The position numbers and the translations under genes are program-made. The notes under the pieces are model-generated. The model had not been told where the DNA came from, ran no database searches, and saw only the letters and a program-made list of their open reading frames with translations. From a virus, in IMG/VR virus record IMGVR_UViG_3300031521_000307, positions 1 through 27,339 of that record: a stretch of DNA of 27,339 nucleotides, one strand, 5' to 3'. Positions 1,520 through 27,339 of this stretch are shown one piece after another (position 1 is the first letter of the stretch; each line of letters opens with the position of its first letter).

Positions 1520-2008
1520 ATGGCTGAAAAAGAAACCAAACCCCTCGACGCCGAAATCATCAAGAACGCCGAAACAATCCAGACTGCTCTGGCCAAGCTC
1601 GAAATCCCCGCCGGTGCCACGACCGCTGAGCTGAAGCTCGACGCCAAGCCGTTCTATGAATTCGTCGCACCCTTCGGCATCACCGAAGAGTCCGAAGCTG
1701 CCCGCCGCGATGCCTTCTCCAAGTTCTACGCCGCTGCCGGCTACGCCACCGGCCTTGTTGGCAACAACGCCTTCGTCGCCAACAAGGACCTCAAGCAAGT
1801 CGACACGACCATCTCGGTCGGCGGTCGTGACCACGTCGAATTCGGCTATCGCCGCAGCGCCATGGTTCCGAACGGCAATGAACAAGTCGAACGCTTCGGT
1901 GTGCTGACCGGCAAGGTCGTCATCTCGGGCACCAGCTCGAAGGCCGCGAACATCGTCGCCGTCAAGACCGCCCTGTCGACCGCCGCGCGCGAACGCTTCG
2001 GCAAGTAA
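1520..2008 (+). CDS. Abundant-type protein of unknown function, 162 aa
   Basis: I do not recognise the fold. The gene is notable for how it is written: codons are dominated by GCC, CTC, ATC, GTC and AAG, as in the sheath, tube and tubulin-like genes of this window and unlike its direct neighbours. It has a strong ribosome binding site, CGAAAGGAAAC at 1503-1513, identical to the one in front of the tubulin-like gene. The product is soluble and Ala-rich, with an N-terminal helix (residues 10-27), a central segment with glycines (ATGLVGNNAF), a beta-type region (TISVGGRDHVEFGYR) and a C-terminal helix ending ARERFGK. It is flanked by hairpins on both sides, so it is probably a single-gene transcript. 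A high-copy virion or DNA-associated protein is inferred from codon use only. Confidence 0.8.
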   Translation: MAEKETKPLDAEIIKNAETIQTALAKLEIPAGATTAELKLDAKPFYEFVAPFGITEESEAARRDAFSKFYAAAGYATGLVGNNAFVANKDLKQVDTTISVGGRDHVEFGYRRSAMVPNGNEQVERFGVLTGKVVISGTSSKAANIVAVKTALSTAARERFGK

Positions 2009-7349: not shown

Positions 7350-7883
7350 TCAGAGCCTCTTCACCATATCGTAATAGGTGACTTTCTCGAGCTCTTTAAA
7401 ACCTGAATGTTCATAGAGACGAAGCGCAGTCTTGTTATCAGCATACACGGACAGTATCACTACCATGATGCCTTTAGATGCACCCCATTTTTCAGCAACT
7501 GTCATCAAGGCAGTTGCAAACCCTTTTCCATTGAATTCTTTCAGCACCAGCAGCTTACTGATGTAAACAGACATGCCTGTGACTGGATCGTTCTGTATCT
7601 GAGCACAGACAGCACCGACAATGCTGCCTTTATGCTCCAGAACAATGTAGATCGCATCTTCAGCTGTGAAGCTTTCGATGTTGCGAATCTCATTCTCAAT
7701 TGTGACATAGGAAGCAGACTTGAACTCCTTGGCTCCTTTATTCCGGAACTCAGCAAGGTGATTAGCCATGTCTCTTGTAGCATGTGTGAGAGTGAACCCT
7801 TCAGGCAGAGTTTTGCTTTGTGTTCTGAGGATCACTTCAAGACTGAATTTCTCAACTTTGAGCAGTGTGGTAAAGTTCTTCAT
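7350..7883 (-). CDS. GNAT-family N-acetyltransferase, 177 aa
   Basis: GNAT enzymes move an acetyl group from acetyl-CoA to an amine on a protein or small molecule. The evidence is the acetyl-CoA loop at residues 117-123 (FNGKGFA, the family Q/R-x-x-G-x-G/A motif with Asn in the first place), a preceding beta strand (YISKLLVL), and the late motif with N150 and Y157 (NKTALRLYEHSGF). About 30 extra residues precede the core. It starts at ATG 7883 with AAGGA upstream and ends 16 bases before the TerL start, inside a packaging/virion block. Its substrate cannot be read from the sequence; acetylation of a host or virion protein is possible. It is preceded on its strand by the hairpin 7912-7945. Confidence 0.9.
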   Translation of the reverse strand: MKNFTTLLKVEKFSLEVILRTQSKTLPEGFTLTHATRDMANHLAEFRNKGAKEFKSASYVTIENEIRNIESFTAEDAIYIVLEHKGSIVGAVCAQIQNDPVTGMSVYISKLLVLKEFNGKGFATALMTVAEKWGASKGIMVVILSVYADNKTALRLYEHSGFKELEKVTYYDMVKRL

Positions 7884-7959: not shown

Positions 7960-9639
7960 TCAGTTCTGAATAGCCGGCACGCCAGCGATAGCCAGGTGCA
8001 AGTCATTCGTGCTCGTACGTTTGAAGAACTCGATGAAGACAGAAGCCCCGTTATAGAGATCCACACCAGCATCAATGACGGAGTTCCAGTTATCGATGGA
8101 GTACTCGATTCTGTTGCTACCAATGATGACGGCGAAGAAGTTCGGAGTCGGTGCCACTGCTTCAGTTTGCAGGTTGATCTGAGGACGAGCATATGTATAA
8201 AGACGAGTCAACCACTCATCCTTACTACTCATCCCCATGGACAGATCCAGTTTCTTCAGGTTCTCATTGATGAACTTGAAGGTCATGGCGTTGTTCTCAC
8301 CGAACACAGGCTTCTGATTCGGATCGAACGTCACTGTCCACTTGGTGCCAGACTCGGTTGGCGGTTTGAACAGAGCAATACCGACGGTCTGCACGTGCTT
8401 GTAAGCCGTGTAGCTATTGTCGACATCGCGCAGATTCAAAGAGACCACGAGGTTTTGCATCGAACCGTAGGCAGTGGGGATGAACGGGTTGCTGGTATCT
8501 TCCACTCGCACAAACGGAGTGACACGCTGAGCCTTCGAGCGTTCCATGTTGAAGAGGAACCACTCGAGCCTGTAAGCATTCGTCGTAGCATCCCAATACG
8601 GGAAGCCGTAGAGCTTGCAGGTATAGGCACCATTCCACTTGACCACCTGAGCCTTGAAGACACGCGTGATGAACTTATCATCCGTTACACGGTTAGCCTC
8701 ATAGCACACCTCGTCGGACGAGAGACTGTACTTGAGCGTGACTTCAAACTGTTCGCCTGCCTGAGTCGATACAAAGGTATCGAAACCAAAGGCTTCGAAC
8801 TTCGTACCGTCCACAGGAATCTCTGCTGTGGTGCCGTCACTGTATGCGACTACGCCAATGAGGTTCATACTCACCAGAGGCACATTGAGCGGATAGTTGA
8901 TCAGGTCATCATCAGACGTACTCATGAAGGGGCTCTTCATGGAGATACCGGTGATGTACTTGACAGAACGATCCGTGGTCGAGATGAATGCCGTGTTCTT
9001 GACCAGCATCTCCTGCATTCGAACCACGTGACCAGCATCCGAGTAGGCCACCACGTAGACGATCTCATTGTCCGACAGATCAGCCTTGGTGGAGCAGGTA
9101 GGCACAGCCTTGATCGAGATGTTGCCTGTCTCTTTTACCACCTCCAGAGGAACAGTCGTGCTGATGAGCGTGTTCGATGCATCGTAGACTGCACTGATCA
9201 CATTCACTTCAGACAGGTCAGTGCCCCGGAAGATCTTGACGAACTTGGCATCGGTGCCCGGAACCGTATAACGACGATCCACAGACAAGTTGTAGGGGAT
9301 GGTGCTCTTATCGCAGAATACACGATAGGTACCACGCCCTGTCCCCATCGACACACCCAGGATCAGATCGATCTCATCTTCTTCACCCGTGAAGAGTGAG
9401 AGGTTGAGCTGTTCCAGAATGGAAACGAAAGTGGTGGCATTGATCGACTTGACTTTGTATGCGATCATGTTGTCAGTATCGAATACCCAGTCATTGACTT
9501 TGGGCACATACCGCTTACTGCCTTGTTTACCCATGTAGATCTCTTTCAGAGCCCACTGGGTCCATCGGCCATTGGGATTGTAGAGAGGAACAATACCATC
9601 CTCTCCACTAACTCCTGGCACTGGAATGAATTCAGCCAT
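7960..9639 (-). CDS. Large virion-type protein with Ig-like repeats, 559 aa
   Basis: I infer a virion protein (head-neck, baseplate or surface fibre) from size, composition and neighbours; the exact family is not recognised. It starts at ATG 9639 with AGGACATGAGAA upstream. The product is beta-rich throughout. The segments VVAYSDAGHVVRM (196-208) and VVAYSDGTTAEIPVDG (263-278) repeat the same VVAYSD strand, and VISAVYDASNTLISTTV (147-163) looks like a third copy; this resembles bacterial Ig-like modules, which often contain Y-S-D-G-T turns. The N-terminal part has WTQWALKEIYMG (26-37), and the C-terminal 150 residues carry NNAMTFKFINENL and an aromatic-rich end. It is separated from the 854-aa gene by a hairpin and from the GNAT gene by another. 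A long plus-strand open frame lies opposite but is a shadow. Confidence 0.85.
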   Translation of the reverse strand: MAEFIPVPGVSGEDGIVPLYNPNGRWTQWALKEIYMGKQGSKRYVPKVNDWVFDTDNMIAYKVKSINATTFVSILEQLNLSLFTGEEDEIDLILGVSMGTGRGTYRVFCDKSTIPYNLSVDRRYTVPGTDAKFVKIFRGTDLSEVNVISAVYDASNTLISTTVPLEVVKETGNISIKAVPTCSTKADLSDNEIVYVVAYSDAGHVVRMQEMLVKNTAFISTTDRSVKYITGISMKSPFMSTSDDDLINYPLNVPLVSMNLIGVVAYSDGTTAEIPVDGTKFEAFGFDTFVSTQAGEQFEVTLKYSLSSDEVCYEANRVTDDKFITRVFKAQVVKWNGAYTCKLYGFPYWDATTNAYRLEWFLFNMERSKAQRVTPFVRVEDTSNPFIPTAYGSMQNLVVSLNLRDVDNSYTAYKHVQTVGIALFKPPTESGTKWTVTFDPNQKPVFGENNAMTFKFINENLKKLDLSMGMSSKDEWLTRLYTYARPQINLQTEAVAPTPNFFAVIIGSNRIEYSIDNWNSVIDAGVDLYNGASVFIEFFKRTSTNDLHLAIAGVPAIQN

Positions 9640-9667
9640 TTCTCATGTCCTGTTCAATTACGGAAGT

Positions 9668-9693
9668 GAGTCTGGGTATTGCTACCCAGACTC
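9668..9693 (-). terminator. 11-bp hairpin between the 854-aa and 559-aa genes
   Basis: The arms GAGTCTGGGTA (9668-9678) and TACCCAGACTC (9683-9693) pair perfectly around a TTGC loop, 13 bases after the minus-strand stop at 9706. No U-run follows in the minus direction. Partial terminator or RNA-stability element. Confidence 0.5.
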
Positions 9694-9705
9694 GTTTGTC
9701 TTCAA

Positions 9706-12270
9706 TTACGCCGCGCTGGAGACTGTGACGAAATCAGAGAGAATGACGCGATCCTTCAGATACACCCTGATAGCGTTTGCCACAATGGTATATTGATAGA
9801 TGTCCAGATCGATTACCGTCTCGAGGTTATGAGGGTGCACATAGACAAAGTTCGAGTCCTGGGCATTCTCATCGCTCACTGGATCAAAATCCAGCAAGTA
9901 CAAGTACGGAGCACAGATCTGTGCCAGCAAATCGTCGGTGTAGCGCTGACGAATAGTGGCTTTGGCAATCTCTTCACTCTTCAGATCATAGATCAGGCGA
10001 CAGCAGAACGGACTGAAAACAAAGTACCGTTCCGTAATGGGAGAAGGATTCTCCGGTTTGACTTCAGGCAGCTTCTTCGTGAGGTACGCACTCACTGATG
10101 CATTGGTCTCATCAGCAGTCTTCTTGAGCGCATAAGTATCCGAGACTGTCAGTCCTCGGGTAGGCACCACGACATCCCGGATGAAGTACGGCTTACCCTC
10201 GAGCGCAGAACCCACAGACACATTCGAACTGTTCTCGAAGTACTGGAGTTCATTCTTGGCGTAGAAGCAACCATTGACTACCACGTGCTGCACTTGGTCA
10301 TCTCTCAAGTCAAACCTATTGTTCCTCGACAGCAGACCATACTGAACGAATCCAGTGTCATCATCGACGGTGTGTGAGAAGTCCGGATTACAGAACCCCT
10401 TACAACGAACATCGAAATGCTGTTTGGTATTGAGAGGATCAATCAAGAATGCCTTGTTGGTCACGACTACCTTCGGGAATACCAAGAAGTAATCGAGGTT
10501 CTCAGCGAGTTGCTTGCCGTTCATCCAGATCTCGAGCTCTCCGGATGGCACCTGCATATCAACACTGGTGTCTACTCCATTGATACTCTTGACCTGCTGG
10601 AGGTTGAACTCGATCGGGCCATTGAAAGCCAGCCTGTCGAATGAGTAGAAGAGTACATTCATGTCGCTACGAACCATCGGCACGAATTTGCTCTTATCCA
10701 CACCCCAAACAGAGGTTCCATTGACGATGGTGTATTGAGCACCACCCGTCACATCCGTCCACTTACCCGTCGAGATTTCTTGCAGGTAATAACGATAGGA
10801 CAGAGTGGAATCCGCAGTGAAGCTATCGTCGTAGATCTCATGGAAACCCTTGGACAACGTACCTGCCAACAGCTCTACCAAGAAAGCTGAGCTATTTGTA
10901 CAGATGTAGACATTATTGAGCAGATGCTGGTAGGCACCGATCAAGGCACCGTTAGAATCATACTCAAAGCCTACAGCTCGTTGTTGCAGTGCGTAAGGCA
11001 CATCCGCGACTTGCTGAGAGCTCTTGGTGTAGACAGCCTGAGGTGTTTCTCCAAGCATCTTCGAGATGGCGTTGTAGCCAAACATCGATTCCACTAGAGA
11101 CACCGTCAGCTCTTGGGTAGTGCTTCCCATGACTGCCGGATAGCCAGCCTGCTCCAGATTGGGGGCTTGCCACACACTGACGTCAGAGTCTATTCCTACC
11201 AGACTCCGAACAATGTCACTATCCCTCAACTTGTAGAGCTCGTGGATCTTGCTCGCTTCATATACCAGAGACCGATCATATCCGGACTTCCTGATGTAGA
11301 TACGTGCAGTCATGTCCAGGATGTTCGAGTTCGAATCGATCACCTTACCCAGAGTGAGCACATTGTTCACCAGCAGTGAGTAGTCTCGATGTGTCGCCAT
11401 CCGGACAGCATCAGGACGATTCAGGTGGTAGTAGACTCCCTTGAATCTACCGGCAGCATCTGCTTGATAGATGTAGTGAGAGTTGTCATCGAAGTACCGA
11501 ATGACTTTCTCTTCACCCGCAATGATCGGAGGATGGAAGAGGTACTTGCGCTCCTTATCCATCTCACTCACGAATGTTTGCAGCTCAGAGATAGGTACAT
11601 CAACCACATGATCAATAGAACTATCATAGATCAGCTCTACCACGTCGCCTACCTTAGCAGTGAAGGGATCGATACCTGATGTCAGATATCCGTTCACATA
11701 GGTGAGCACTGCTCCTTCCATGGCTCTGTACTTAGCCGCCATGTGCTGCATCGCCAGTAACTCATCCATCGTCGTGGGTGTATCCCCAGCCACATAGATG
11801 ATGTCATTGGTCGCACTTCCACGAACCGAATTAAAATACGCATTCGAGTAGAAGTGGATAAACAAATCCTCCTTACCAAACCGCGCCGGCACCAATTGAA
11901 GATGTGGCACTGCAATGATCAGATCCCTGTCTTCGGTCTTTCTGTAATAGCACCGATGAAGAGGCATTCTGATACCGGATGAATTGTAGATCTCAACGAT
12001 CAACTTCTCAGCATTACACGCATCGCTGAACAACACCCATTCTTCGGACTTGGGTAGCAAGTTCAGTGCTGAGAAGTAAATCTGTCCAATCTGAAAGACA
12101 TGGAAGATTTCCGATGTGGGAAGATCAACATTTCTCCACATCACACGGACATAGTTCCTGGTGCCTTCCGCCGGTGAGATCCTCGCAGGTTTGAATATCA
12201 CCTGCTTATCTTGATCAGGCGTGCACCAAACTTTGCGCACGGCCTGATCAACCAGGTAGTTCTCGGCCAT
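9706..12270 (-). CDS. Large virion structural protein, 854 aa
   Basis: The largest protein in the window. It has no motif I can name but has the look of a tail or baseplate component: beta-rich, many Tyr/Phe/Asn, few cysteines, no signal peptide or membrane span. It begins MAENYLVDQAVRKVW. Visible segments include a helical stretch near residues 168-187 (TMDELLAMQHMAAKYRAMEG), a Tyr-rich central part (SLSYRYYLQEISTGKWTDV) and a beta-rich C-terminus (VVVNGCFYAKNELQYF). Its ATG overlaps the stop of the upstream 323-aa gene by one base (TAATG), so the two are translationally coupled and probably work together. The following 559-aa gene shares its beta-rich style. Virion role is inferred from size, style and the TerL/sheath surroundings. 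Confidence 0.85.
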   Translation of the reverse strand: MAENYLVDQAVRKVWCTPDQDKQVIFKPARISPAEGTRNYVRVMWRNVDLPTSEIFHVFQIGQIYFSALNLLPKSEEWVLFSDACNAEKLIVEIYNSSGIRMPLHRCYYRKTEDRDLIIAVPHLQLVPARFGKEDLFIHFYSNAYFNSVRGSATNDIIYVAGDTPTTMDELLAMQHMAAKYRAMEGAVLTYVNGYLTSGIDPFTAKVGDVVELIYDSSIDHVVDVPISELQTFVSEMDKERKYLFHPPIIAGEEKVIRYFDDNSHYIYQADAAGRFKGVYYHLNRPDAVRMATHRDYSLLVNNVLTLGKVIDSNSNILDMTARIYIRKSGYDRSLVYEASKIHELYKLRDSDIVRSLVGIDSDVSVWQAPNLEQAGYPAVMGSTTQELTVSLVESMFGYNAISKMLGETPQAVYTKSSQQVADVPYALQQRAVGFEYDSNGALIGAYQHLLNNVYICTNSSAFLVELLAGTLSKGFHEIYDDSFTADSTLSYRYYLQEISTGKWTDVTGGAQYTIVNGTSVWGVDKSKFVPMVRSDMNVLFYSFDRLAFNGPIEFNLQQVKSINGVDTSVDMQVPSGELEIWMNGKQLAENLDYFLVFPKVVVTNKAFLIDPLNTKQHFDVRCKGFCNPDFSHTVDDDTGFVQYGLLSRNNRFDLRDDQVQHVVVNGCFYAKNELQYFENSSNVSVGSALEGKPYFIRDVVVPTRGLTVSDTYALKKTADETNASVSAYLTKKLPEVKPENPSPITERYFVFSPFCCRLIYDLKSEEIAKATIRQRYTDDLLAQICAPYLYLLDFDPVSDENAQDSNFVYVHPHNLETVIDLDIYQYTIVANAIRVYLKDRVILSDFVTVSSAA

Positions 12271-13241
12271 TAGTGAGCCCCAAATGACATCACAAGAATA
12301 TTGTGAAAGGCCTTCACAAACTGATCCACGTCAGCAGTCTTCTTGTGCTGGAGCAGTTTCTGAATGAAAGTGTTCTTGTAGCTGCGATCGGTACAGGCTG
12401 CACGCAGGTAAGCGAGCCAGGTAGGAGGATGCTCCAGCGCAACAGCCATGGCTTCCAGGCTGTTACCATACCAGCTATGTCCAATCACTTCATAGAGCAC
12501 ACCCTTGTTCAAACCGGTCAGACGCACGTTATTGAGTACGTCTTTGATACACTGGCAGAACTGATCCACATTGTCGATCTGATTCACATTCTGGAGAATC
12601 GAAACCACAACATCGGCTGCCACATTGATGGAACGAGCAATCCCACCAGCGAGCTTGTATTTCTCATGCTCTCCAATCACTCCTTCTTTGACAAAAAGGC
12701 AATGATAGAAGAACGCAGACAGAACAGCGAGCTTCATCTGTTCAGCCGGGTCGAGTGAGAAGCGGTTGCGCAGCGACTGACTGATCCAGTCAGCATACAC
12801 TGCAATGGGTAGCTTCGAGATGGTGAGCAGATGTTGGGGTTCGTTATTGACCCAGTAATAGGTCAGCACCGCTTCTGAACCATGCAGCATGTATTCGCTC
12901 ATGTTGGAGATGCGTTTGATCATCTCCCACGAACCATCTTTGGGTTGGCGAGTGTATGCGCGCAGATCGACAATGATGGAGACGTGATCCGTCCTGTCAT
13001 TGTTTTTTTCGATAGCCGACAAAGGACGCTCGATAGGAAAACTGAAAGCCGGAACCATCATCACACTGTCTTCAGCGACAATAGCGAGAGGGCCATCAAT
13101 CGAATACCTGATATCCAGTTCAGGAATCTCAAGACGTCCGACGTAGCTGCGAGCAATAATTTCTTCGATACCATGACGAATCTTCGTCAGAACATAGTCT
13201 TTGCATGCCGTCGTGTCATAGGCCGTACGAAAGATACTCAT
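12270..13241 (-). CDS. Probable virion-associated protein, 323 aa
   Basis: The frame is open up to 13376, but the start is best placed at ATG 13241 (product MSIFRTAYDTTACKD), which has AAGGAAA about 10 bases upstream; the upstream codons read as non-coding. The protein has an N-terminal beta-type region (residues 30-100, including LEIPELDIRYSIDGPLAIV) and a long helical C-terminal part (about 150-323) with several histidines. No membrane span or enzyme motif is visible. Its stop overlaps the start of the 854-aa gene (TAATG). It is the first gene of the minus-strand block and its promoter should lie in 13242-13449, the divergent region shared with the sheath gene. Function unknown; tail or neck assembly is inferred from context. 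Confidence 0.8.
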   Translation of the reverse strand: MSIFRTAYDTTACKDYVLTKIRHGIEEIIARSYVGRLEIPELDIRYSIDGPLAIVAEDSVMMVPAFSFPIERPLSAIEKNNDRTDHVSIIVDLRAYTRQPKDGSWEMIKRISNMSEYMLHGSEAVLTYYWVNNEPQHLLTISKLPIAVYADWISQSLRNRFSLDPAEQMKLAVLSAFFYHCLFVKEGVIGEHEKYKLAGGIARSINVAADVVVSILQNVNQIDNVDQFCQCIKDVLNNVRLTGLNKGVLYEVIGHSWYGNSLEAMAVALEHPPTWLAYLRAACTDRSYKNTFIQKLLQHKKTADVDQFVKAFHNILVMSFGAH

Positions 13242-13449
13242 TTTTCTTGTTTCCTTACGGGAAGTTCGGGATAATAAATATGAGTTCAATATTAAAATAC
13301 TTGATGCTGGGAGCTCTTGTATTGAATGCACTTTGAACTTCTCAGTCACATCGCTCAAAAACAGCAAGCACTTCAAGGAACCGGGGTGGATCTTGTGTAA
13401 ACCATAAGATTCTGCTCTATCAACACTTTATTTTCGCCTGGAGCATTCC
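13242..13449. promoter_or_regulatory. Divergent intergenic region between virion blocks
   Basis: About 208 bases separate the minus-strand 323-aa gene from the plus-strand sheath gene, so promoters for both directions are expected here. It has an AT-rich core around 13271-13303 (ATAATAAATATGAG..., ATATTAAAATAC) that includes AATAAATA, similar to but not the same as the T4 late promoter TATAAATA. I see no convincing -35/-10 pair and no gene. Confidence 0.4.
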
Positions 13450-15687
13450 ATGTCAGCATTGATGAAAAATGCGGCGCCGATGACGATCCAGTTGGGCATG
13501 AAGGATGACAGCACCACCGCGGCGAGTGTCGCCGCGGAAGCTATCCCTTCCCACCTTGCAAAAGTCTTTCTTTTTGCGAAGCGAGGCCCCACTACGGATC
13601 AGCTGGTCAGCGGCAATTCTCGCACCACGATGTATGGCAGTGATTCTTTCGATCTCCGGAAGAAGTACGCCACACACCAAACCGTTCTCTCGAACAAGCT
13701 CAATGATCAGGCCAACCCCCAGATCATTCGTCGCCTGAAGCCGCAGGATGCCGGTCCTCGTCCGAGCATCCGCATCTACCTGGATCTGCTCAAGACCAAC
13801 CTCACCGAATACCGGCGCGGTTCCGACGGCAAGTACATGCTCGACACCGATGGCAATCGGATCAAGACCGGCGGCACCATCCCCGGCTATCGCGGCAAGT
13901 GGATTGCCAAGGCCATCCCGGTCGAAGGTGGCGTTGAAGAGGTGGTTTACTCTTCGACCTATGACTGGGCGACGTCGGAAGACGGTGATGCCTATGTCAA
14001 GCGCGCTTTCGATGGCAACACCATGATAGTGGTGACGTCACGCAATCTGGAAATCGGTCTGGGTGTGCAGCAAGAAGGCACGATGATTGACACAGCTGCC
14101 AATGGCGCTGCTGGTGCTCAATCCATCATGTACCCGATGTTCGACATCGCAGTTCCGTTCTTCGGTCAAGATGGTAACAATGTTGGTCTGCGTATGTATG
14201 CGCCGACCGATGATTCCCAGATGCCGATCAACAAGAACCTGCTGACCAAGGACAAGATCTATCCGCTGGTGGCACAACTCCTGTACAAGGACGATATCAA
14301 CCAGACCTCGACGATCACTTCGACCATTGCTGGCGATCAGTATGTCGATGTGGCTCTGAAGCCCGGTGCTATGGACTCCACCTATGAAGCTGAACGCTAC
14401 ATTGGCGACATCCTGCTCCCGGCCTACCAGTCGCTCGATGACATCACCACGACTCCGGTCTACGGTCCGTTCGGCCAGATCCACGTCTATGAGGACAACC
14501 TCGCTGAAGTGATCAATCTGCTTTATGCAGAAGAAGTCAAGCATGTTGGCGATGATTACACCGACTTCGATGAAACCGCTGATGAAGAATGGCGTTTCAA
14601 CATCCTGTCGGCCGTCACTTCTGCCAACCAGCCGTACCACGCATTCGAACTGAATTACTCGGATGTTGACGCGTTCCGGTTCAGTGAGTCGGCCACCATC
14701 TATGCCCAAGGCGGCTCGGATGGCACGATGGACGATGCAATGCTCAACAAGCTGGTCACGAGCCATATCGCGGTCTATGCTGATGAGCTCTCCGAGTTCA
14801 CGGACTCGGCTCTGCACCCGGAATGCATCATCTACGACACGGGCTTCCAGCTCGATACGAAGAAGGCTCTGGCTCAGTTCATCTCGGTTCGCAAGAACAC
14901 GTTCATCTTCCTGGCGACTCATGCTGTTGGTGAGAAGCTCTCAGAAGCGAATGAGTACTCGCGATCTGTGGCTCTCAATGCCTATCTGAAGAACTATCCG
15001 GAATCGGTCTACTGGGGTACGAAGGCCGTTCGTGGCCTGATCATGGGCCGCTCTGGCAACCTGCTGAGCAGCAACTGGCGTGGTCGTCTGCCTGTTGCCG
15101 TCGAGATCGCCTCCAAGGCTGCGGAATGCATGGGTGCTGCTGATGGCATCTGGAAGGAAGCGAGTTTCTTCGATCGCTATCCGAACTCCATGATCACGAT
15201 GTTCAAGAACTTGAACGTTGAGTTCATCGGTGCTGCTACCCGCAACCGCGACTGGGAAATCGGCATGAACTGGGTGGGTGCTTTCGATCGCCGGCAGTTC
15301 TTCATCCCGGCTCTGAAGACCATCTACGGTGGCGACAGCCTCTCGGATACGTCGGTGCTCAACAGCTTCCTCACAGTCATGCTGTGCTGCGAGCTGAACA
15401 AGATCGGCGAACGCATCTGGCGTGAGTTCTCTGGCTCCACTACCCTGACCGATGACCAGTTCATCGATGCTGTCAATGCCCGCTACAAGGAACTGATCAA
15501 GGACCGCTTCACGAACGTCTACACGATCATTCCGAATGCGTACATCAGCACCGATCAGAAGTCGAAGGGATATGTTTGGACCCTGCAGGTCAAGCTGGGT
15601 GCGCCGAACATGAAGACTGTGGAAGAGCTGTATCTGGATGTGTACCGCAAGGACACACTCGATGCCGCTTCTTCGACGACGGCCTAA
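13450..15687 (+). CDS. Contractile tail sheath protein, 745 aa
   Basis: The sheath forms the contracting outer layer of the myovirus tail. The identification rests on the C-terminal region, which matches the conserved sheath domain: an N-R-D-W...NWVGAFDRRQFFIP segment near 598-620, RIWREFSG near 652-660 followed by TTLTDDQF, and a terminal beta segment (VWTLQVKLGAPNMKTVEELY). The variable middle part (about 120-500) would be the exposed insertion domains. Length is near that of other jumbo-phage sheaths. The N-terminus has MTIQLGMKDDSTT and then a beta-rich strand region. It has a GGAG ribosome binding site (13440-13443) and highly biased codons (ATC, CTC, GGC, CGT), as expected for a major structural protein. 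The tube gene follows after 81 bases. Confidence 0.92.
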   Translation: MSALMKNAAPMTIQLGMKDDSTTAASVAAEAIPSHLAKVFLFAKRGPTTDQLVSGNSRTTMYGSDSFDLRKKYATHQTVLSNKLNDQANPQIIRRLKPQDAGPRPSIRIYLDLLKTNLTEYRRGSDGKYMLDTDGNRIKTGGTIPGYRGKWIAKAIPVEGGVEEVVYSSTYDWATSEDGDAYVKRAFDGNTMIVVTSRNLEIGLGVQQEGTMIDTAANGAAGAQSIMYPMFDIAVPFFGQDGNNVGLRMYAPTDDSQMPINKNLLTKDKIYPLVAQLLYKDDINQTSTITSTIAGDQYVDVALKPGAMDSTYEAERYIGDILLPAYQSLDDITTTPVYGPFGQIHVYEDNLAEVINLLYAEEVKHVGDDYTDFDETADEEWRFNILSAVTSANQPYHAFELNYSDVDAFRFSESATIYAQGGSDGTMDDAMLNKLVTSHIAVYADELSEFTDSALHPECIIYDTGFQLDTKKALAQFISVRKNTFIFLATHAVGEKLSEANEYSRSVALNAYLKNYPESVYWGTKAVRGLIMGRSGNLLSSNWRGRLPVAVEIASKAAECMGAADGIWKEASFFDRYPNSMITMFKNLNVEFIGAATRNRDWEIGMNWVGAFDRRQFFIPALKTIYGGDSLSDTSVLNSFLTVMLCCELNKIGERIWREFSGSTTLTDDQFIDAVNARYKELIKDRFTNVYTIIPNAYISTDQKSKGYVWTLQVKLGAPNMKTVEELYLDVYRKDTLDAASSTTA

Positions 15688-15710
15688 TCCACCGACTTCG
15701 TCATCTCTCC

Positions 15711-15740
15711 TAGGGGAGGGGTAGAGATATTCCTCCCCTA
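15711..15740 (+). terminator. Hairpin between sheath and tube genes
   Basis: The arms TAGGGGAGG (15711-15719) and CCTCCCCTA (15732-15740) pair around a 12-base loop, and GTCAT/ATGAC (15700-15704, 15741-15745) can extend it after a gap. No U-run follows. It could adjust sheath versus tube message levels. Confidence 0.4.
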
Positions 15741-15768
15741 ATGACTTCTGACATTAAAGGAAAAGCAC

Positions 15769-16635
15769 ATGTCACGTCAAACTGACACGTTGCTGGGTGC
15801 TAGCAACGCATATGCGCAGGGCGCACAGAACACCATGCTCAACCTGGGAACAGGTGGTCAGCTGGGTTATGTGAGTGACCTGTCGCAACTGCTCAGCGCT
15901 CAGCTTCACATCCGCAGCAACCTCATCGCTGTTGTGATCGAAGGCCCGAAGGGCTTCTCGTATCTGCCCAATAGCTCGTACTACTACGCCGCTCTTCGTG
16001 AACTCGTTGAACGGCAGGCTCTTACCATCGACGGCCTGGCTCAGGGTCTTGAAGTCCAGACTGTGGAAACTCCTATCGGCGCCGCTGGCGAAATGATGGA
16101 GCACCCGGTCAAGACTACTCGTGCCCGTTCCCAGGTCACGATGCGCTGGCCTGAACGCTATGGCAAGCCGGTCTTCCGTTTCCTGTCGAGTTACATCCGT
16201 AACTTGATCCTGGACCCGGATACCAACTTCGCAGCCATCGGCACTCTGTCCAACAAGCCCACCGACATGCTCATGGACATGTTCGGCTGCACTATCGCCT
16301 TCTTCGAACCTGATCCCACCCACACCAAGGTGGTTCAGTCGTGGCTCGGAACTGGCATGTGGCCGAAGGTTACCGGTGATGCAGTGGGTCGTCGTGAAAT
16401 CACGGCTGCTTCCGAAGAAACGACCTACGACGTGCAATGGGCTGGTGTTTACCAGGTCGGCGTCGGTGTGGATCAGTTCTGCCAGAAGCTGCTCGACGCC
16501 ATGAACATCGTCAATGCCAACCCGAACAACCGCGCCGCATTCATCGACGCGATCAGCTCGGACATCACCGCCGCATCCTCGTCTGGCTACTCGGCCGGTA
16601 TCGACACGATGCGTAACAAGGCTGTTTCCGTTTAA
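15769..16635 (+). CDS. Tail tube protein, 288 aa
   Basis: The tube protein forms the inner channel of the contractile tail and sits under the sheath. Evidence: position right after the sheath gene, strong AAAGGAAAA ribosome binding site, highly biased codons, and a T4 gp19-like central region (MRWPERYGKPVFRFLSSYIR from about 125, then a LSNKPTDMLMDMFGC segment near 163-178). A long beta segment with TKVVQSWLGTGMWPKVTGDA and TTYDVQWAGVYQVGVGVDQF (about 185-245) fits the beta-barrel of tube subunits. The N-terminus is Ala/Gln-rich and the last 35 residues are Ala/Ser-rich. It is followed by a terminator-like structure. About three times the mass of a minimal tube domain is not seen, so it is a single-domain tube with extensions. 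Confidence 0.88.
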   Translation: MSRQTDTLLGASNAYAQGAQNTMLNLGTGGQLGYVSDLSQLLSAQLHIRSNLIAVVIEGPKGFSYLPNSSYYYAALRELVERQALTIDGLAQGLEVQTVETPIGAAGEMMEHPVKTTRARSQVTMRWPERYGKPVFRFLSSYIRNLILDPDTNFAAIGTLSNKPTDMLMDMFGCTIAFFEPDPTHTKVVQSWLGTGMWPKVTGDAVGRREITAASEETTYDVQWAGVYQVGVGVDQFCQKLLDAMNIVNANPNNRAAFIDAISSDITAASSSGYSAGIDTMRNKAVSV

Positions 16636-17710: not shown

Positions 17711-18517
17711 TTAACGGAATGTGCCGGTCTTGAACTTGATGAAACGAGTGAGCTTCTCGCGGTCGTTGAGGAAGAAGACCTTTGCCATGGTAGTGTCTCG
17801 ATACTCCTCGTATTGCTGTTCAGCTTCTTCGTACTTGTCAACGATGTCTTTGAAAACACCGAGGGACTGACCACCTACCAGCTCATTCATGTCAATGCGC
17901 ATCTTCAGTGTATTGTAGATGTACGACTGCACAGCGAGCAAGATCAGTTTGGACAGGTACTTGTAACTGCGAGGTTGTAGATTGGACAGGTTCTCATCAT
18001 TGGCAAGCTGGCAGCGCAGGAAGATATTGGCTGGCAACAGAATGCTGTCTCTGACCATCACGGTATTTTCAGCAATAAGCTGGACGTTGGCTGTGGATGT
18101 GACCGGAATTGTCCCCATTGCATCAACCATCGCCTGAGCACCACGAAGCATCACTGAGTTGTTGCCACTAGCAGCAGCACCGTAACTCGTGGCGTATGTG
18201 GGATCATTGAATGTGATGTTGTTTACACTGATGATGGATCGGCCTTGTGTGAGAGACTTGGGGATGTAGTAGACCTGGGTATAGTCATTGACACGCTCAG
18301 TATCAACACCATAGAGCGGGACATAAGCTTCCACCCCACCGATCAGATTGGCGTCCACAAGAATCCTGGGGACGACTACTGTATCGTAGATTGCTTTATC
18401 CAAGCTGGTATTTTTTATCCACCAGTCACCTGTTATGCTCAGAAACGCTGCTTCCAGAATTTGTCTGGGAATCTTGAAACGAACGATGTCGTCAAGAGCT
18501 TTCGAGATAGGGTTCAT
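17711..18517 (-). CDS. Hypothetical virion-type protein, 268 aa
   Basis: I do not recognise this protein. It starts at ATG 18517 with GGAGTAGCGATT upstream. It has an N-terminal helical part (MNPISKALDDIVRFKIPRQI), then a region rich in Val/Ile/Asn strands (DTVVVPRILVDANLIGGVEA near 46-65 and VISVNNITFNDP-type turns), and a C-terminal helical region (180-268) with Gln/Glu (YEEAEQQYEEYRDTT) that could form a short coiled coil. It is the only minus-strand gene between two plus-strand blocks, sharing a convergent terminator with the tail block and a divergent region with the dCTP deaminase gene. A virion or assembly role is inferred from the neighbours, with low certainty. Confidence 0.75.
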   Translation of the reverse strand: MNPISKALDDIVRFKIPRQILEAAFLSITGDWWIKNTSLDKAIYDTVVVPRILVDANLIGGVEAYVPLYGVDTERVNDYTQVYYIPKSLTQGRSIISVNNITFNDPTYATSYGAAASGNNSVMLRGAQAMVDAMGTIPVTSTANVQLIAENTVMVRDSILLPANIFLRCQLANDENLSNLQPRSYKYLSKLILLAVQSYIYNTLKMRIDMNELVGGQSLGVFKDIVDKYEEAEQQYEEYRDTTMAKVFFLNDREKLTRFIKFKTGTFR

Positions 18518-18614: not shown

Positions 18615-19418
18615 ATGTCTATCATGTCTGATCGCTGGATTCGTAACCAGTGTATCACTCCCACTCACAAGGTGAAATCACCTACCGGCGGTATTGAGTA
18701 CCTCGGTCACAAGATCTCTGATGTGGAAAAGCATCAGATCAGTGTCCAGGAGATGCTCTCAGCAGGTGGTGATGCCTCATTCTTCAATGAGGAAGTTGCT
18801 GTTCCTCCCACTGGCCAGCTCTCCGATGTCTCGATGACTGCTGCCGAGATGGGTATCGACGTCTATACGAAGCTCACCGAAGAAGAGCTCGCAAACTGGA
18901 AGCCGATGATCGAGCCGTTTGTGCCGGGCCAAGTTCGTGAAGAGAATGGGAAGAAGATCCTCTCTTACGGCACTTCATCATTCGGCTATGATGTCCGCCT
19001 CCAGCCCAAGTTCAAGATCTTCACCAACATCAACAACTCCCTGATTGACCCGCTCAACGTCAGTGATGATTGTTACGTGGATTTCGAGGGTGATTCAGTC
19101 ATCATTCCTCCGAACTCCTACGCACTGGCCCCTACGGTGGAGTACTTTCGCATCCCCAACGACGTCATGGTGGTATGTGTCGGTAAGAGCACCATGGCAA
19201 GGCTTGCTGGATTGGTGAATGTCACTCCTATCGAACCGGGCTTCGAAGGCCAGGTGATGATCGAGATTGCCAATGGCAGCCCACTGCCTCTGAAGGTCTA
19301 TGCCAACCAAGGCATCGCTCAGTTCATGTTCTTCAAGGGCAATGAGCCATCTGAAAACCCGTACGACAAGTCTCGCAAGTACTTCGGTCAGACCGGCATC
19401 ACTACGGCGAGGTTGTGA
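18615..19418 (+). CDS. dcd: dCTP deaminase with ~80-residue N-terminal insertion, 267 aa
   Basis: dCTP deaminase converts dCTP to dUTP, feeding dTTP synthesis for phage DNA. The core from residue ~97 matches the ~188-residue proteobacterial family: [57 protein letters not shown] (catalytic-site S192 and R196), [19 protein letters not shown] (catalytic Glu E217) and the C-terminal YFGQTG (Q259). The first ten residues, [10 protein letters not shown], also match the bacterial N-terminus. Residues ~11-96 therefore form an insertion that replaces about 7 residues of the usual protein; it is soluble and helical ([19 protein letters not shown]). Start ATG 18615 has AGGAG (18605-18609). The next gene starts inside the stop codon (TGATG), indicating translational coupling. 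Confidence 0.93.
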
Positions 19419-19834
19419 TGGAAGGATACACGCTGGTCATCTTTATCGTCGGTGTAGCTGTGACTGTCTCGATCCATTTCTGGAGCCTGTATAAGGAACA
19501 GGACAAAAGAATTTTGGCTCTTGGAAAAGCCATCGTAAAACACGGTGATAATCAAATTCGGAGCAATGGTCAAAAAGAAGCATTGCTTCAGGATTTTAGT
19601 CGAGGAGTTCGTATATTGGAGGAAAAGTTTACTGTGCTCGCCGAGATGAACTCCGGTATAGCTACCAACAGCAAAGCGCTCTCCACCTATGTGAGCAAGC
19701 TTGCTAAGGGAACTCGCAATGGCTTGATCAACGCTGAGCGCCGACATGCGATTTTGAGCACCCGGATCAGACGTGTTGAGCGGCGCAGGTACTCACTGAG
19801 AAAAGCATCGCACCTCGACAAGCATCTGTACTAA
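19418..19834 (+). CDS. Membrane-anchored coiled-coil protein, 138 aa
   Basis: Not a recognised family. The ATG at 19418 overlaps the stop of the dCTP deaminase gene (TGATG) with GAGG upstream at 19410-19413; a GTG at 19415 adds one residue. Residues about 4-22 form one hydrophobic helix (TLVIFIVGVAVTVSIHFWS), followed by a long helical, charged region (about 25-105) and a strongly basic tail (RIRRVERRRYSLRKAS). This one-helix-plus-coiled-coil layout is like an inner-membrane spanin or a membrane-tethered scaffold, with the basic tail likely facing nucleic acid or lipid heads. A spanin role is a guess: no outer-membrane partner gene was found next to it. It is followed by a terminator-like hairpin. 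Confidence 0.7.
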   Translation: MEGYTLVIFIVGVAVTVSIHFWSLYKEQDKRILALGKAIVKHGDNQIRSNGQKEALLQDFSRGVRILEEKFTVLAEMNSGIATNSKALSTYVSKLAKGTRNGLINAERRHAILSTRIRRVERRRYSLRKASHLDKHLY

Positions 19835-19849
19835 ACACTTTTTGTCATC

Positions 19850-19881
19850 TGAGTCCGGGCAATAAAAATACTACGGACTCA
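19850..19881 (+). terminator. Hairpin between the coiled-coil gene and the tubulin-like gene
   Basis: The arms TGAGTCCG (19850-19857) and CGGACTCA (19874-19881) pair around a 16-base loop and are followed by TTTCTTTT. It ends the preceding operon and separates it from the tubulin-like gene. Confidence 0.6.
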
Positions 19882-19910
19882 TTTCTTTTGAATTACTCCC
19901 AACTAAGTTT

Positions 19911-19921
19911 CGAAAGGAAAC
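19911..19921 (+). promoter_or_regulatory. Strong ribosome binding site shared with the 162-aa gene
   Basis: CGAAAGGAAAC at 19911-19921 sits directly before ATG 19925. The identical 11-mer occurs at 1503-1513 before the 162-aa abundant-type gene. Both genes also share strong codon bias, so this looks like a signal for high translation. Confidence 0.6.
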
Positions 19922-19924
19922 ACG

Positions 19925-20944
19925 ATGGAACAGCAAGAAACCAGCACGATCACCCTCCCCGAAAAAGGCCGCGTCATGATCTACGCCTGCGGTGGCGCTG
20001 GTGTTTCGATCGGTCAGAACTGCCTCATGAAGTACGTCGGCCAGGCCGCTGATGCCTTCGCCAATGTGTCGATGAGCTTCATCGACACGAGCTACTCGAA
20101 CTTCAAGTCCGATACTCCGCGCTCGTCCTGCTACGTCATCGAAGGCGTTGACGGTTCCGGTGGTCTGCGTGCGGCCAATGCTCCGGAAATCCAGCGCCGC
20201 ACCAAGGACATCCTGCAACGCCTGCGTCCGCTCGACTTCAACATCGTGCTCTCCAGCGGTGGTGGCGGTTCGGGTTCGGTCATCGCTCCGGCCCTCACGG
20301 AAGAACTCCTGAAGCGCAAGCTCCCCACTGTTGTTCTGCTTGTCGGCGGCACCGATACCTATCAGCGCGCCGAAAACACGCTCAAGACGCTCAAGAGCTA
20401 CGAAATGGTCGCCCGCAACAACGACATGCCGGTCTGCCTGTACTACCAGGAAAACTCGGAAGTAACCCCGATCAAGATCGTGAACCAGAACATCACCACG
20501 GTCATCTCCTTCCTGGCCGCTGTGTTCTCTCGTCGCAATCGTCGTCTGGACCTGGCCGACATCACTAACTGGCTGAACTTTCCGACGGTGACCTCGCACG
20601 GCCCTCAGCTCGCTGCGCTGGACTTCCATACCAACGAGATCAATGAAGGCGTCAGCGACATCATCAGCGTTCTCACGATCGCTGAAGACGAGTCTTTCGA
20701 AGCCCTGCCGTTCAAGTGCGAAAGCCACTACATCGGCTACATCGAAAAGGCTCCGGTCACGATGTCGGCTACGCTGCCGCTGCACTGCGTCATCCGCACC
20801 AACAGCTTCAAGCAGATCGCCGGCCGGCTCAACAGCATGGTCGAAGAACTGCGTGAAACCCGCGATGCGCGTGTCACGTCGGCATTCGGCATCATTGCCG
20901 GTGACGACATCGAGAGCTCCGGCGGCAGTTCCCTGGTGCTGTAA
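19925..20944 (+). CDS. Tubulin/FtsZ-superfamily GTPase, 339 aa
   Basis: Proteins of this superfamily bind GTP and polymerise into filaments. Seen here: a T1-type loop ACGGAGVSIGQN (21-32), a T3-like segment GSGGLRAANAPEI (77-89), the signature T4 loop GGGGSGSVIAP (112-122, the family G-G-G-T/S-G-T/S-G motif), a T5-like LVGGTDTYQRAEN (139-151), and a T7 catalytic loop LDLADITN (208-215) with D209 and D212, matching the N-x-D-x-x-D pattern of FtsZ, although the family Asn is not kept. The length, ~340 aa, fits FtsZ/TubZ/PhuZ. Codons are strongly biased and the ribosome binding site is very good, so high copy number is expected. PhuZ builds a spindle that positions the replicating phage in some jumbo phages; a similar filament role, or interference with host FtsZ, is inferred. 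Confidence 0.9.
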   Translation: MEQQETSTITLPEKGRVMIYACGGAGVSIGQNCLMKYVGQAADAFANVSMSFIDTSYSNFKSDTPRSSCYVIEGVDGSGGLRAANAPEIQRRTKDILQRLRPLDFNIVLSSGGGGSGSVIAPALTEELLKRKLPTVVLLVGGTDTYQRAENTLKTLKSYEMVARNNDMPVCLYYQENSEVTPIKIVNQNITTVISFLAAVFSRRNRRLDLADITNWLNFPTVTSHGPQLAALDFHTNEINEGVSDIISVLTIAEDESFEALPFKCESHYIGYIEKAPVTMSATLPLHCVIRTNSFKQIAGRLNSMVEELRETRDARVTSAFGIIAGDDIESSGGSSLVL

Positions 20945-20976
20945 GAAGCACAAGTAAGCGAAGTATTTTCTGACGC

Positions 20977-23726: not shown

Positions 23727-25865
23727 ATGACTGCAGCGAATCCATTTGTTCTGGAGGCAGACGCATATCGACGCGATTTGGATGTCGTCAAGCATTACGT
23801 CGATGATGCCGCCATGTACTTATCGGTCATGACTGGCAAAGACTACGGGCAGTGCGCAGCCTTTGTCAAGAAAACGGTAAGGCCTGGTGGCGCATTGGGT
23901 ATGGTTGACCCAATAGTCAGATGCACGGATCGTCCCAACTTCGAAGATCGGTTTGAGGTTGAGATTCCTTTGACTCAGTATCTTCGCGATGCCATCAAGG
24001 ATGCAGACATCGTTGCACCCACTCTGACGACGTATGTCAATCCTGGGAAGAAGCAATCTCTTCACGTTGACTTCATCGACAAGAATGTGAAGCGCCGGTC
24101 TCGTGCTAAGAAAGAGATGTTCGAAGCCGAGATGGACCAAGATGTAATCAAGGCCACATACAAGAAGAATGAGCAGACCTTTGCGAAGATCTTCAACAAT
24201 GCACTGAGCGGTGCGTATGTGAGTAATTCGACTCCTGTCTATAACAAGACAGCTCACAGCACTCTGACGTCCACATGCCGGTGCACATCCGGGTATGGCA
24301 ATGCGAACAATGAAAAGATGCTCTCAGGTAATCGCCATTACTGGTCTCCTGACATCGTTCGCAATAATGTCATCTCCATCATCAATCATACCGACTATGA
24401 GAAGTTCTCGGCAGTGATGAGTAAGTACGACCTGCATTACCCCAGCGTGGATGATGCGATGGCAGTTATCACCCGTGGCTCCAACCACTACTGGAGATTG
24501 CCTAAGGAAATCGAACGTATCCGCATTCTGATCTCCAAGTTGACCCCTCTTCAAAGAGCAGCTTTTGTCTATACCGGGGATCTTTATAGCCTGACGCTCT
24601 ACAATGATGGTCTGATGCGTGGATTCATTACCAAGTTGTCCACACTGGTGGATGTTCAACACCCTGACCCCAATTCTATCTTCAAGAACATCAATGAAGA
24701 CTACCGCATTTTGGCAGTTCAGATATGTGAGAGCTTGACCCGCGGTATCAAGTGGTCGAAGATGGAAAAGGAACATCCCGATGTTTATGCGATTGTTGCA
24801 TCGACTATGGAAAACTCCTACAAGACTGTGTTGGAATATGGTGATCTGATCAGTGCGCTGCTAACCTCTAGCAACGTACCGGCATCGTTAGGATGGTTCC
24901 CTACCAGTGTGCGTTATGCAGCCGTGACATCTGACACTGACTCCACTATCTTCACAGTGCAGGATTGGGTGAAGTGGTATTTCGGTAAGATCTGTTTCGG
25001 TTCCAAGGCCAACGCTGTCGCAGCAACAATGATCTTCGTTGCATCTCAGGCGATTGTTCACTTGCTGGCAATGATGAGTTCGAACATTGGTGTGGAAAAG
25101 AAGCGCCTGCACCAGATCGCCATGAAGAACGAATTCAAGTTCGACGTCTTTGTGACGACACAGGTGGCCAAGCACTACTATGCTCTGATCAGTTGTCGGG
25201 AAGGTAACGTCTATACTGACTTCAAAGAAGAAATCAAGGGTGTTCACTTGAAGTCTTCCAATGCTCCTCCGGCAATCAATGCCAAGGCCAAGGAGCTGAT
25301 GATCGGAACAATGAAGAAGATTATCAGCGGTGAGGATCTGTACCTGTCTCAGATTCTGACTGAGATTGCTGATGAAGAACGTGTGATTCTGAAATCTTTG
25401 AGAAGTGGTTCTCTGGAGTACTTCCGAGGAGCACAGATCAAAGGTCCTGACTCATACACACTTGATCCTGAACGTTCTCCCTACATGCATTACACCTTCT
25501 GGAATGAAGTGTTTGGTCCCAAGCATGGGGAAGCACCTCCTCCGCCTTATGCGGCAATTAAGGTCAATACAAGCATGGAGAACAAGACACAAGTCAATGC
25601 ATGGCTCAACAGCATTGAAGATCAGGAACTCAAAGAGCGCATGGCTGCATGGTTGGAAAAACGCAATGGGCGGATGCTCAAGACGTTTTATCTACCCATG
25701 AACATTGTTGACTCCAAGGGTATCCCTGATGAAATCTTCCGGATCATCAATGTGAGGAAGATTGTGGCGGACTGCTCTAAGGTTTTTACTTTGATTCTTG
25801 AATCATTTGGAGTGTTCTCATCTCCAGCAGGAAAGCACATCAAACTGTACTCGGATTATTACTAA
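23727..25865 (+). CDS. Family-B DNA polymerase, C-terminal catalytic part, 712 aa
   Basis: Family-B polymerases copy DNA using three palm motifs: A (D-x-x-SLYP), B (K-x3-N-S-x-Y-G) and C (Y-x-D-T-D-S). Here motif C is TSDTDST with DTDS at 403-406, and motif B is KIFNNALSGA at 154-163, preceded by the usual basic helix (VKRRSRAKK, 121-129). I cannot find motif A or the exonuclease motifs, and only ~120 residues precede the motif B helix, so this looks like one half of a split polymerase whose N-terminal part is encoded elsewhere. About 240 residues separate motifs B and C, more than usual, with conserved-looking TAHSTLTSTCRCTSGYGNA (175-193). Thumb-like helices follow. Start ATG 23727 with AAGGTG upstream, 3 bases after the previous stop. 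Confidence 0.8.
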   Translation: MTAANPFVLEADAYRRDLDVVKHYVDDAAMYLSVMTGKDYGQCAAFVKKTVRPGGALGMVDPIVRCTDRPNFEDRFEVEIPLTQYLRDAIKDADIVAPTLTTYVNPGKKQSLHVDFIDKNVKRRSRAKKEMFEAEMDQDVIKATYKKNEQTFAKIFNNALSGAYVSNSTPVYNKTAHSTLTSTCRCTSGYGNANNEKMLSGNRHYWSPDIVRNNVISIINHTDYEKFSAVMSKYDLHYPSVDDAMAVITRGSNHYWRLPKEIERIRILISKLTPLQRAAFVYTGDLYSLTLYNDGLMRGFITKLSTLVDVQHPDPNSIFKNINEDYRILAVQICESLTRGIKWSKMEKEHPDVYAIVASTMENSYKTVLEYGDLISALLTSSNVPASLGWFPTSVRYAAVTSDTDSTIFTVQDWVKWYFGKICFGSKANAVAATMIFVASQAIVHLLAMMSSNIGVEKKRLHQIAMKNEFKFDVFVTTQVAKHYYALISCREGNVYTDFKEEIKGVHLKSSNAPPAINAKAKELMIGTMKKIISGEDLYLSQILTEIADEERVILKSLRSGSLEYFRGAQIKGPDSYTLDPERSPYMHYTFWNEVFGPKHGEAPPPPYAAIKVNTSMENKTQVNAWLNSIEDQELKERMAAWLEKRNGRMLKTFYLPMNIVDSKGIPDEIFRIINVRKIVADCSKVFTLILESFGVFSSPAGKHIKLYSDYY

Positions 25866-25926
25866 TCCGCCTCTACTACCTCTAGGCTGGCGCCTAGAGG
25901 TAGTAGAGGATCAGTTTGCCGGATTA
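25863..25926. terminator. 18-bp hairpin inside a larger inverted repeat at convergent ends
   Basis: An inner perfect stem of 18 bp (25870-25887 and 25892-25909) has a 4-base TGGC loop. An outer repeat, TAATCCG (25863-25869) and CGGATTA (25920-25926), overlaps the stop codons of both convergent genes. Probable two-way terminator. Confidence 0.7.
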
Positions 25927-27339
25927 GCTCATGGTTAGCTTGGGAAGTGAACTGAATTCATTAATGAGCTTGTGGGTAACCTTCATCGAATCACGCAGGT
26001 CATCGATGAGCTTCTTCGCTGCATCCATATCCGTGGACTTGATGAATTCCTCGGGATGAAGAAGAGCAATCTTGCAAAGCTCATGGTACGTCTGAAGGAA
26101 AGAAGAAACTTCCTCCACATACACGTTGTAAGCATAGACGTAAACGCTAAGCTCCTTACTGATGTACTGGACAGCGATCATGGGTTCAGTCAGATTCAAT
26201 CCCCTGACAGTGGGTCTGACAGTGTGCATGCCATCCTCGCTCTCATTCGTGACAAACTCTTCATATGCCTGTTGGTAGGTTTTGAGAGTACTCACGAGCT
26301 TGAGCAGGGGCTTCACGTGCTTTTCCATGGCGATGAAGGAAGACTGGATGTCAGCTATGCGGAACTGACGCAAGAACCTTGCGGGAGCCGATACAACGCC
26401 ACCAGGACCCCTCAGAATGAAATTTCTGACGTCGTCCTGAGATGACACAGGACCACGCTTGAGATCTGCATTCATCTTGGAGTCTTTTATTAGCATGTCG
26501 ATGTCAGCAAGAACTCCCTTGAGAGTTTGACCATCGTGCAGATTCAGAACCCTGGCTGTTTCTCTGTGTAGTTCCGCAACCTCTGCATCAAGGTTCTTGT
26601 ATTCCCGCAGATCAGCATCTGCCTTTTTGAGGAACTTGATCCAGTAATCGAAATATGCAACGAGTTTCTGAACGTCGCCTGTTGCGGGCACGATACCGGT
26701 TTTCTGAGACTCCTTGAAATAGAGCGAATAGTAAATGTCTTTACCGAGAAGGATTTCTCCAATGACTGTACGACTGGCATGTGCGGCAGTGATACAGTTT
26801 GTCCTCTTCATGCTCGTGGGTGACCTGGAGGCAATGCTCAGAGCCAGAGTTTCAATGCGCTTGAGCACATCGCCCTGAACACCTTCATCAGCGGGATGAT
26901 TGCTCAGCGGAGTAGCCATCTGACCCAGAGTCTGAAAGTCTTTGGCTTGAGGATCGATCTTCTCGACCACGCGCTCAATTGCTTGTTCAGGTTTGACGAT
27001 GTGTCCGTCATCATCAACATTCTTGATATCGATAGTGTTGCCACCAGACCCGCTACCGCTTGAACTACCCGTCGTGAAGAACTTGTAGATCTTCATGATG
27101 GTGGCAATCACTGCCAGTACAGCAGTAGCAATCAAAGCAATGATGCCCTTACTGAGTTCCTCCAGGGCTGCTCTGTGCTTCTGAGCCGCAGGAGCCGAAC
27201 TGAAAAACGTATCCATCGTCTTGCCATTTGGGCAAAAGGATTCCACAGCAGCCACACCATCCATCGTCACCGATCTCTCAGCCTCGAGTTTACCCAGCAG
27301 GCTATACATTGCTTCTGCACGAGCAACCATGGCTTCCAA
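25924..27339 (-). CDS. Large membrane-helix protein, 5' incomplete, at least 471 aa
   Basis: The frame is open to the window edge, so its start lies outside; an ATG at residue 4 or 11 cannot be excluded. About 65 residues in from the edge is one hydrophobic helix (GIIALIATAVLAVIATIMKI), followed by an unusual Gly/Ser linker (TTGSSSGSGSGGNT). The remaining ~370 residues are helical and charged, with coiled-coil character (LREYKNLDAEVAELHRETAR near 240-260) and a C-terminal helix bundle ending KLTMS. No catalytic motif is seen. Large helical proteins of this type in jumbo phages are often internal virion or membrane-associated proteins; this is inference. It is convergent with the polymerase gene and shares its terminator. 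Confidence 0.75.
   Translation of the reverse strand: MEAMVARAEAMYSLLGKLEAERSVTMDGVAAVESFCPNGKTMDTFFSSAPAAQKHRAALEELSKGIIALIATAVLAVIATIMKIYKFFTTGSSSGSGSGGNTIDIKNVDDDGHIVKPEQAIERVVEKIDPQAKDFQTLGQMATPLSNHPADEGVQGDVLKRIETLALSIASRSPTSMKRTNCITAAHASRTVIGEILLGKDIYYSLYFKESQKTGIVPATGDVQKLVAYFDYWIKFLKKADADLREYKNLDAEVAELHRETARVLNLHDGQTLKGVLADIDMLIKDSKMNADLKRGPVSSQDDVRNFILRGPGGVVSAPARFLRQFRIADIQSSFIAMEKHVKPLLKLVSTLKTYQQAYEEFVTNESEDGMHTVRPTVRGLNLTEPMIAVQYISKELSVYVYAYNVYVEEVSSFLQTYHELCKIALLHPEEFIKSTDMDAAKKLIDDLRDSMKVTHKLINEFSSLPKLTMS

Follow-up and report, generated by a model that had tools for sequence, protein, structure and literature searches.

The gene at positions 19925-20944 (+) of the window, by which we mean the entire 27,339 nucleotide stretch analysed here, a fragmentary IMG/VR virus record, encodes a phage tubulin. 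It is very probably the phuZ gene of a nucleus-forming, phiKZ-like phage (Chimalliviridae), whose host is most likely a member of the Burkholderiales. The protein is a divergent addition to a well-known family in an ordinary genomic setting, and not a new type of system. The open reading frame has an ATG start and is uninterrupted and intact. In brief, the 339 aa product consists of a tubulin GTPase domain and an activation domain, followed by a C-terminal helix at approximately residues 294-315 and a flexible tail ending in SSLVL.

The protein matches the PHROG family phrog_4733, 'tubulin PhuZ', with an E-value of 4.4e-82, and the Pfam phage tubulin C-terminal domain PF22334 above the cut-off. 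A sequence search against the PDB gave five solved PhuZ chains as the only strong matches (E 6e-27 to 7e-23). Relatives of the tubulin were found in 180 phage records, many of them annotated as PhuZ. The best identity to any relative is only about 40%. An alignment-based scan of viral contigs gave 121 relatives, of which 80 were retained. A peptide-pattern scan of viral contigs, using the single protein, gave no relatives.

All loops needed for catalysis are present. These are T1, CGGAGVSIG (residues 22-30), the T3 region, IDTSYSN/GVDGSGG, T4, SGGGGSGSVIAP (residues 111-122), and T7, LDLADITNW (residues 208-216), which carries D209 and D212. In the alignment they match the loops of phiKZ and 201phi2-1 PhuZ column for column; D209 and D212 correspond to D187 and D190 of 201phi2-1 PhuZ, and D212 to D198 of RAY PhuZ. 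Alanine mutants at D190 (201phi2-1) and D198 (RAY) are reported to be deficient in hydrolysis, and their filaments to be static (PMC4244570, PMC10299810). The description given in the first-pass annotation, a tubulin/FtsZ-like GTPase with intact loops, is thus confirmed by the tubulin fold and the full loop set, and the sequence supports a polymerising-type tubulin GTPase. That annotation had also judged the T7 loop and the T4 context to be closer to FtsZ/TubZ, which does not hold, as both are of the PhuZ type and both structure and phylogeny place the protein in PhuZ. T7 differs by one residue from the LDLMDITNW of phiKZ PhuZ; the GGGSGS of T4 is also found in 201phi2-1 PhuZ, whereas E. coli FtsZ has GGGTGT. 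The C-terminus comprises the helix at 294-315 and the tail AGDDIESSGGSSLVL, which ends in L-V-L as in most members of its clade. Of the acidic residues in the phiKZ/201phi2-1 knuckle, D303 and D305 are replaced by I324 and G326, and D306 is retained as D327 (alignment).

An AlphaFold2 model built from 43 sequences (pLDDT 91.1, pTM 0.89) replaced a single-sequence model with a pLDDT of 39. Comparison of this model with solved structures, a check proposed earlier, gave a tubulin fold closest to PhuZ. Ranks 1-5 in the PDB are all PhuZ, from Goslar, phiKZ and 201phi2-1, with TM-scores of 0.74-0.82 by query and 0.83-0.89 by target, and the top match is Goslar PhuZ (PDB 9pm9, E 9.7e-29). Later matches by target TM-score are c-st TubZ (0.67-0.69), CetZ (about 0.58) and FtsZ (mostly 0.57-0.66). 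By query, c-st TubZ, CetZ, Bacillus TubZ and FtsZ score 0.52-0.63, at identities of 10-18%. We considered that the protein could be a partition tubulin of the TubZ type, as in the TubZRC systems of plasmids and phages, and segregate the phage genome. TubZ belongs to the same superfamily, and by structure c-st TubZ ranks directly after PhuZ, but its TM-score by query is 0.61-0.63 against the 0.74-0.82 of PhuZ. Moreover, no relative was found among 72,556 plasmids, where the sole match was to an aldolase gene (E 9), and no TubR-like partner was recognised among the neighbouring genes, which are the phiKZ-like set. We therefore consider a partition role very improbable.

A maximum-likelihood tree was calculated from 63 sequences, including four bacterial and archaeal FtsZ-type proteins; TubZ was compared by structure only. 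The protein falls within PhuZ, separated from the FtsZ-type proteins by a split with 100/100 support. Within PhuZ it belongs to a clade of 14 members that includes the PhuZ of Burkholderia phages FLC9 and SURPRISE13 (support 97/95). The first-pass annotation had made novelty depend on a position outside the known PhuZ clade, and with this placement the claim is refuted. The same split bears on the reading that the tubulin is an FtsZ-like protein interfering with cell division of the host. The T4 and T7 motifs are common to FtsZ in their general form; identity to E. coli FtsZ is, however, only 13%, the 100/100 branch lies between the two, and the tail with its L-V-L end resembles that of PhuZ and not the C-terminal peptide of E. 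coli FtsZ. An FtsZ-like role is, in our view, extremely unlikely. Nothing was found that points to poisoning of host division, an idea raised at the outset and dropped for want of supporting evidence.

Comparing the genes of the window with those of annotated phages, using tblastn, we found the same gene set in nearly the same order. On the minus strand, the gene for the terminase large subunit (5198-7333), 53% identical to that of Burkholderia phage FLC9, is followed by three genes homologous to phiKZ gp26, gp27 and gp28, with the order kept (7960-13376). The tail sheath and tail tube genes (13450-16635, +) correspond to gp29 and gp30. The DUF7484/phrog_3179 gene (17711-18517, -) has homologues in phiKZ gp42 and 201phi2-1 gp73. 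A divergent family B DNA polymerase, homologous to phiKZ gp50, is encoded downstream of phuZ (23727-25865, +), as in phiKZ. The remaining phiKZ counterparts are gp32 (phrog_2921), gp39 (PhuZ) and gp49 (phrog_3235). Homologues of gp26-gp30, DUF7484, PhuZ, phrog_3235 and the DNA polymerase are common to the window, phiKZ, FLC9, LucasX and SURPRISE13. The terminase is likewise common to the window, FLC9, LucasX and SURPRISE13, the terminase region of phiKZ lying outside the comparison. A GNAT-type acetyltransferase gene (7350-7883, -) adjoins the terminase gene, and N-acetyltransferase genes are also found near the terminase in SURPRISE13.

In FLC9, LucasX, SURPRISE13, Eowyn, Goslar, RAY and Proteus phage 10, the gene immediately upstream of phuZ is of equal length and lies on the minus strand, and wherever tested it is a DUF7484 homologue. 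In phiKZ (gp42) and 201phi2-1 (gp73) the homologue is instead located downstream of phuZ. In the window, the DUF7484-phuZ pair is split by a dCTP deaminase-like gene (18615-19418, +) and one small gene, together occupying 18615-19834 (+). We did not find this insertion in any of the relatives examined.

The nuclear shell gene, chmA, is located roughly 1.5-8.5 kb beyond the polymerase in phiKZ, 201phi2-1 and LucasX. The window ends 1.5 kb past the polymerase and does not contain chmA. It should be noted that this absence carries no information, because the fragment stops before the place where chmA is expected. A 471 aa ORF (25924-27339, -) that runs to the end of the window has the position and strand of phiKZ gp52; it matched no PHROG family, and tblastn gave no match in the phiKZ region. 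The chmA family was found in all 43 of the records tested that carry a related tubulin and in none of 14 control genomes, and the conserved phiKZ-like gene blocks of Chimalliviridae are present in the window. The view that the tubulin lies outside the typical PhuZ setting is thus contradicted by both the gene order and the related records. A PhuZ-family tubulin could in principle serve another purpose in a phage that forms no nucleus, a reading in line with the lack of chmA within the window. Against this stand the 43 related records that all have chmA, and a gene order that is that of chmA-bearing phages, up to the point where chmA would be expected; we regard such a phage as a highly improbable source of the gene.

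Relatives in bacterial assemblies are mainly from Burkholderiales, namely Caballeronia, two Paraburkholderia and Rhodoferax, an indication of the host group. A contig labelled as a Clostridia bacterium MAG from sheep colon gave a distant PhuZ-like match at positions 10001-10495 (32% over residues 53-219), outside the hosts of the other relatives.

The phuZ leader (19906-19924, +) contains the ribosome binding site AAAGGA. At -8.7 kcal/mol it ranks joint third among 25 leaders, so that it is a good site, although placing it among the two strongest, as was done earlier, was a slight overstatement. The codon usage of phuZ is strongly of the structural type, as first described, with a CAI of 0.806 (reference sheath and tube) and a GC3 of 0.78, joint highest among 27 genes. 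A codon bias near that of sheath and tube is also found for PhuZ in FLC9, LucasX, SURPRISE13 and phiKZ. This fits an abundant cytoskeletal protein. The earlier suggestion of a cytoskeletal role in positioning phage DNA or capsids, at a copy number that is probably high, is supported. A 162 aa gene at 1520-2008 (+) has a codon bias like that of phuZ (CAI 0.807, GC3 0.78), shares its leader motif, CGAAAGGAAAC, and is probably highly expressed; tblastn gave no relative of it in the phage collection, and its PHROG matches are weak and to families of unknown function. A 360 aa open frame lies antisense to phuZ (19871-20953, -); we attribute it, like other antisense ORFs, to the codon bias of phuZ.

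In the phages studied, PhuZ filaments move the phage nucleus to the cell centre and/or rotate it, and they also deliver capsids (PMC10299810, PMC12908238; functions also covered in PMC4244570). By analogy with these proteins, we suggest that each PhuZ monomer would bind GTP between its loops T1-T4 and that the monomers would assemble head to tail, with D209 and D212 in the T7 loop of one subunit completing the active site around the GTP bound by the following subunit. Filaments made dynamic by hydrolysis may, in the infected cell, position the proteinaceous phage nucleus, rotate it, or both, and carry capsids to the surface of the nucleus, where DNA is packaged. Details may differ, since the best identity is only about 40%. 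PhuZ is dispensable and missing from about a third of nucleus-forming phages (PMC10299810, PMC12908238).

The salt bridges R217:D305 and E225:R290 are reported to be essential for self-assembly of 201phi2-1 PhuZ (PMC10299810). Among the tabulated proteins the full set occurs only in phiKZ and 201phi2-1; in the alignment these pairs are missing from PhuZ of the window and from nearly every member of its clade. At R217 the alignment of the window protein is uncertain, with a gap in one version and E238 in the other. RAY PhuZ also lacks these salt bridges, yet forms filaments, which in situ appear to be five-stranded tubes (PMC10299810). Because contacts reported as essential in 201phi2-1 are missing, it is conceivable, though we lean against it, that this clade, made up of Burkholderia phages and metagenomic contigs, has a strand number or lateral packing unlike the three-stranded Pseudomonas form. 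PhuZ filaments already vary between three-stranded, five-stranded, spindle and vortex forms, and the clade could help to reveal which residues determine them. The protein also extends the known range of phage tubulins by a divergent PhuZ, with a conserved gene order around phuZ in a little-studied phage group that has several members linked to Burkholderiales.

Compared with known systems, PhuZ of FLC9 and SURPRISE13 shares with the window the supported clade, the order of the flanking genes, and the loop and tail type. They are 30-35% identical to the protein described here, whose N-terminus is longer, with about 14 residues ahead of the first strand; the dCTP deaminase-like gene and the small gene before phuZ also set the window apart from these two phages. 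PhuZ of phiKZ (gp39) and 201phi2-1 (gp59; PDB 3zbq/3zbp/3r4v/3rb8) are alike in fold, T4 and T7 loops, C-terminal helix with tail, and flanking genes, but are 24-30% identical and have the R217:D305 and E225:R290 pairs, which are not kept in the window. The nearest structure, PhuZ of Escherichia phage Goslar (9pm9), is 28% identical and builds a vortex, not a bipolar spindle (PMC12908238). TubZ, CetZ and FtsZ share the tubulin superfamily fold and the GTP-site loops, but differ in their lower structural similarity, their 10-18% identity and their gene context.
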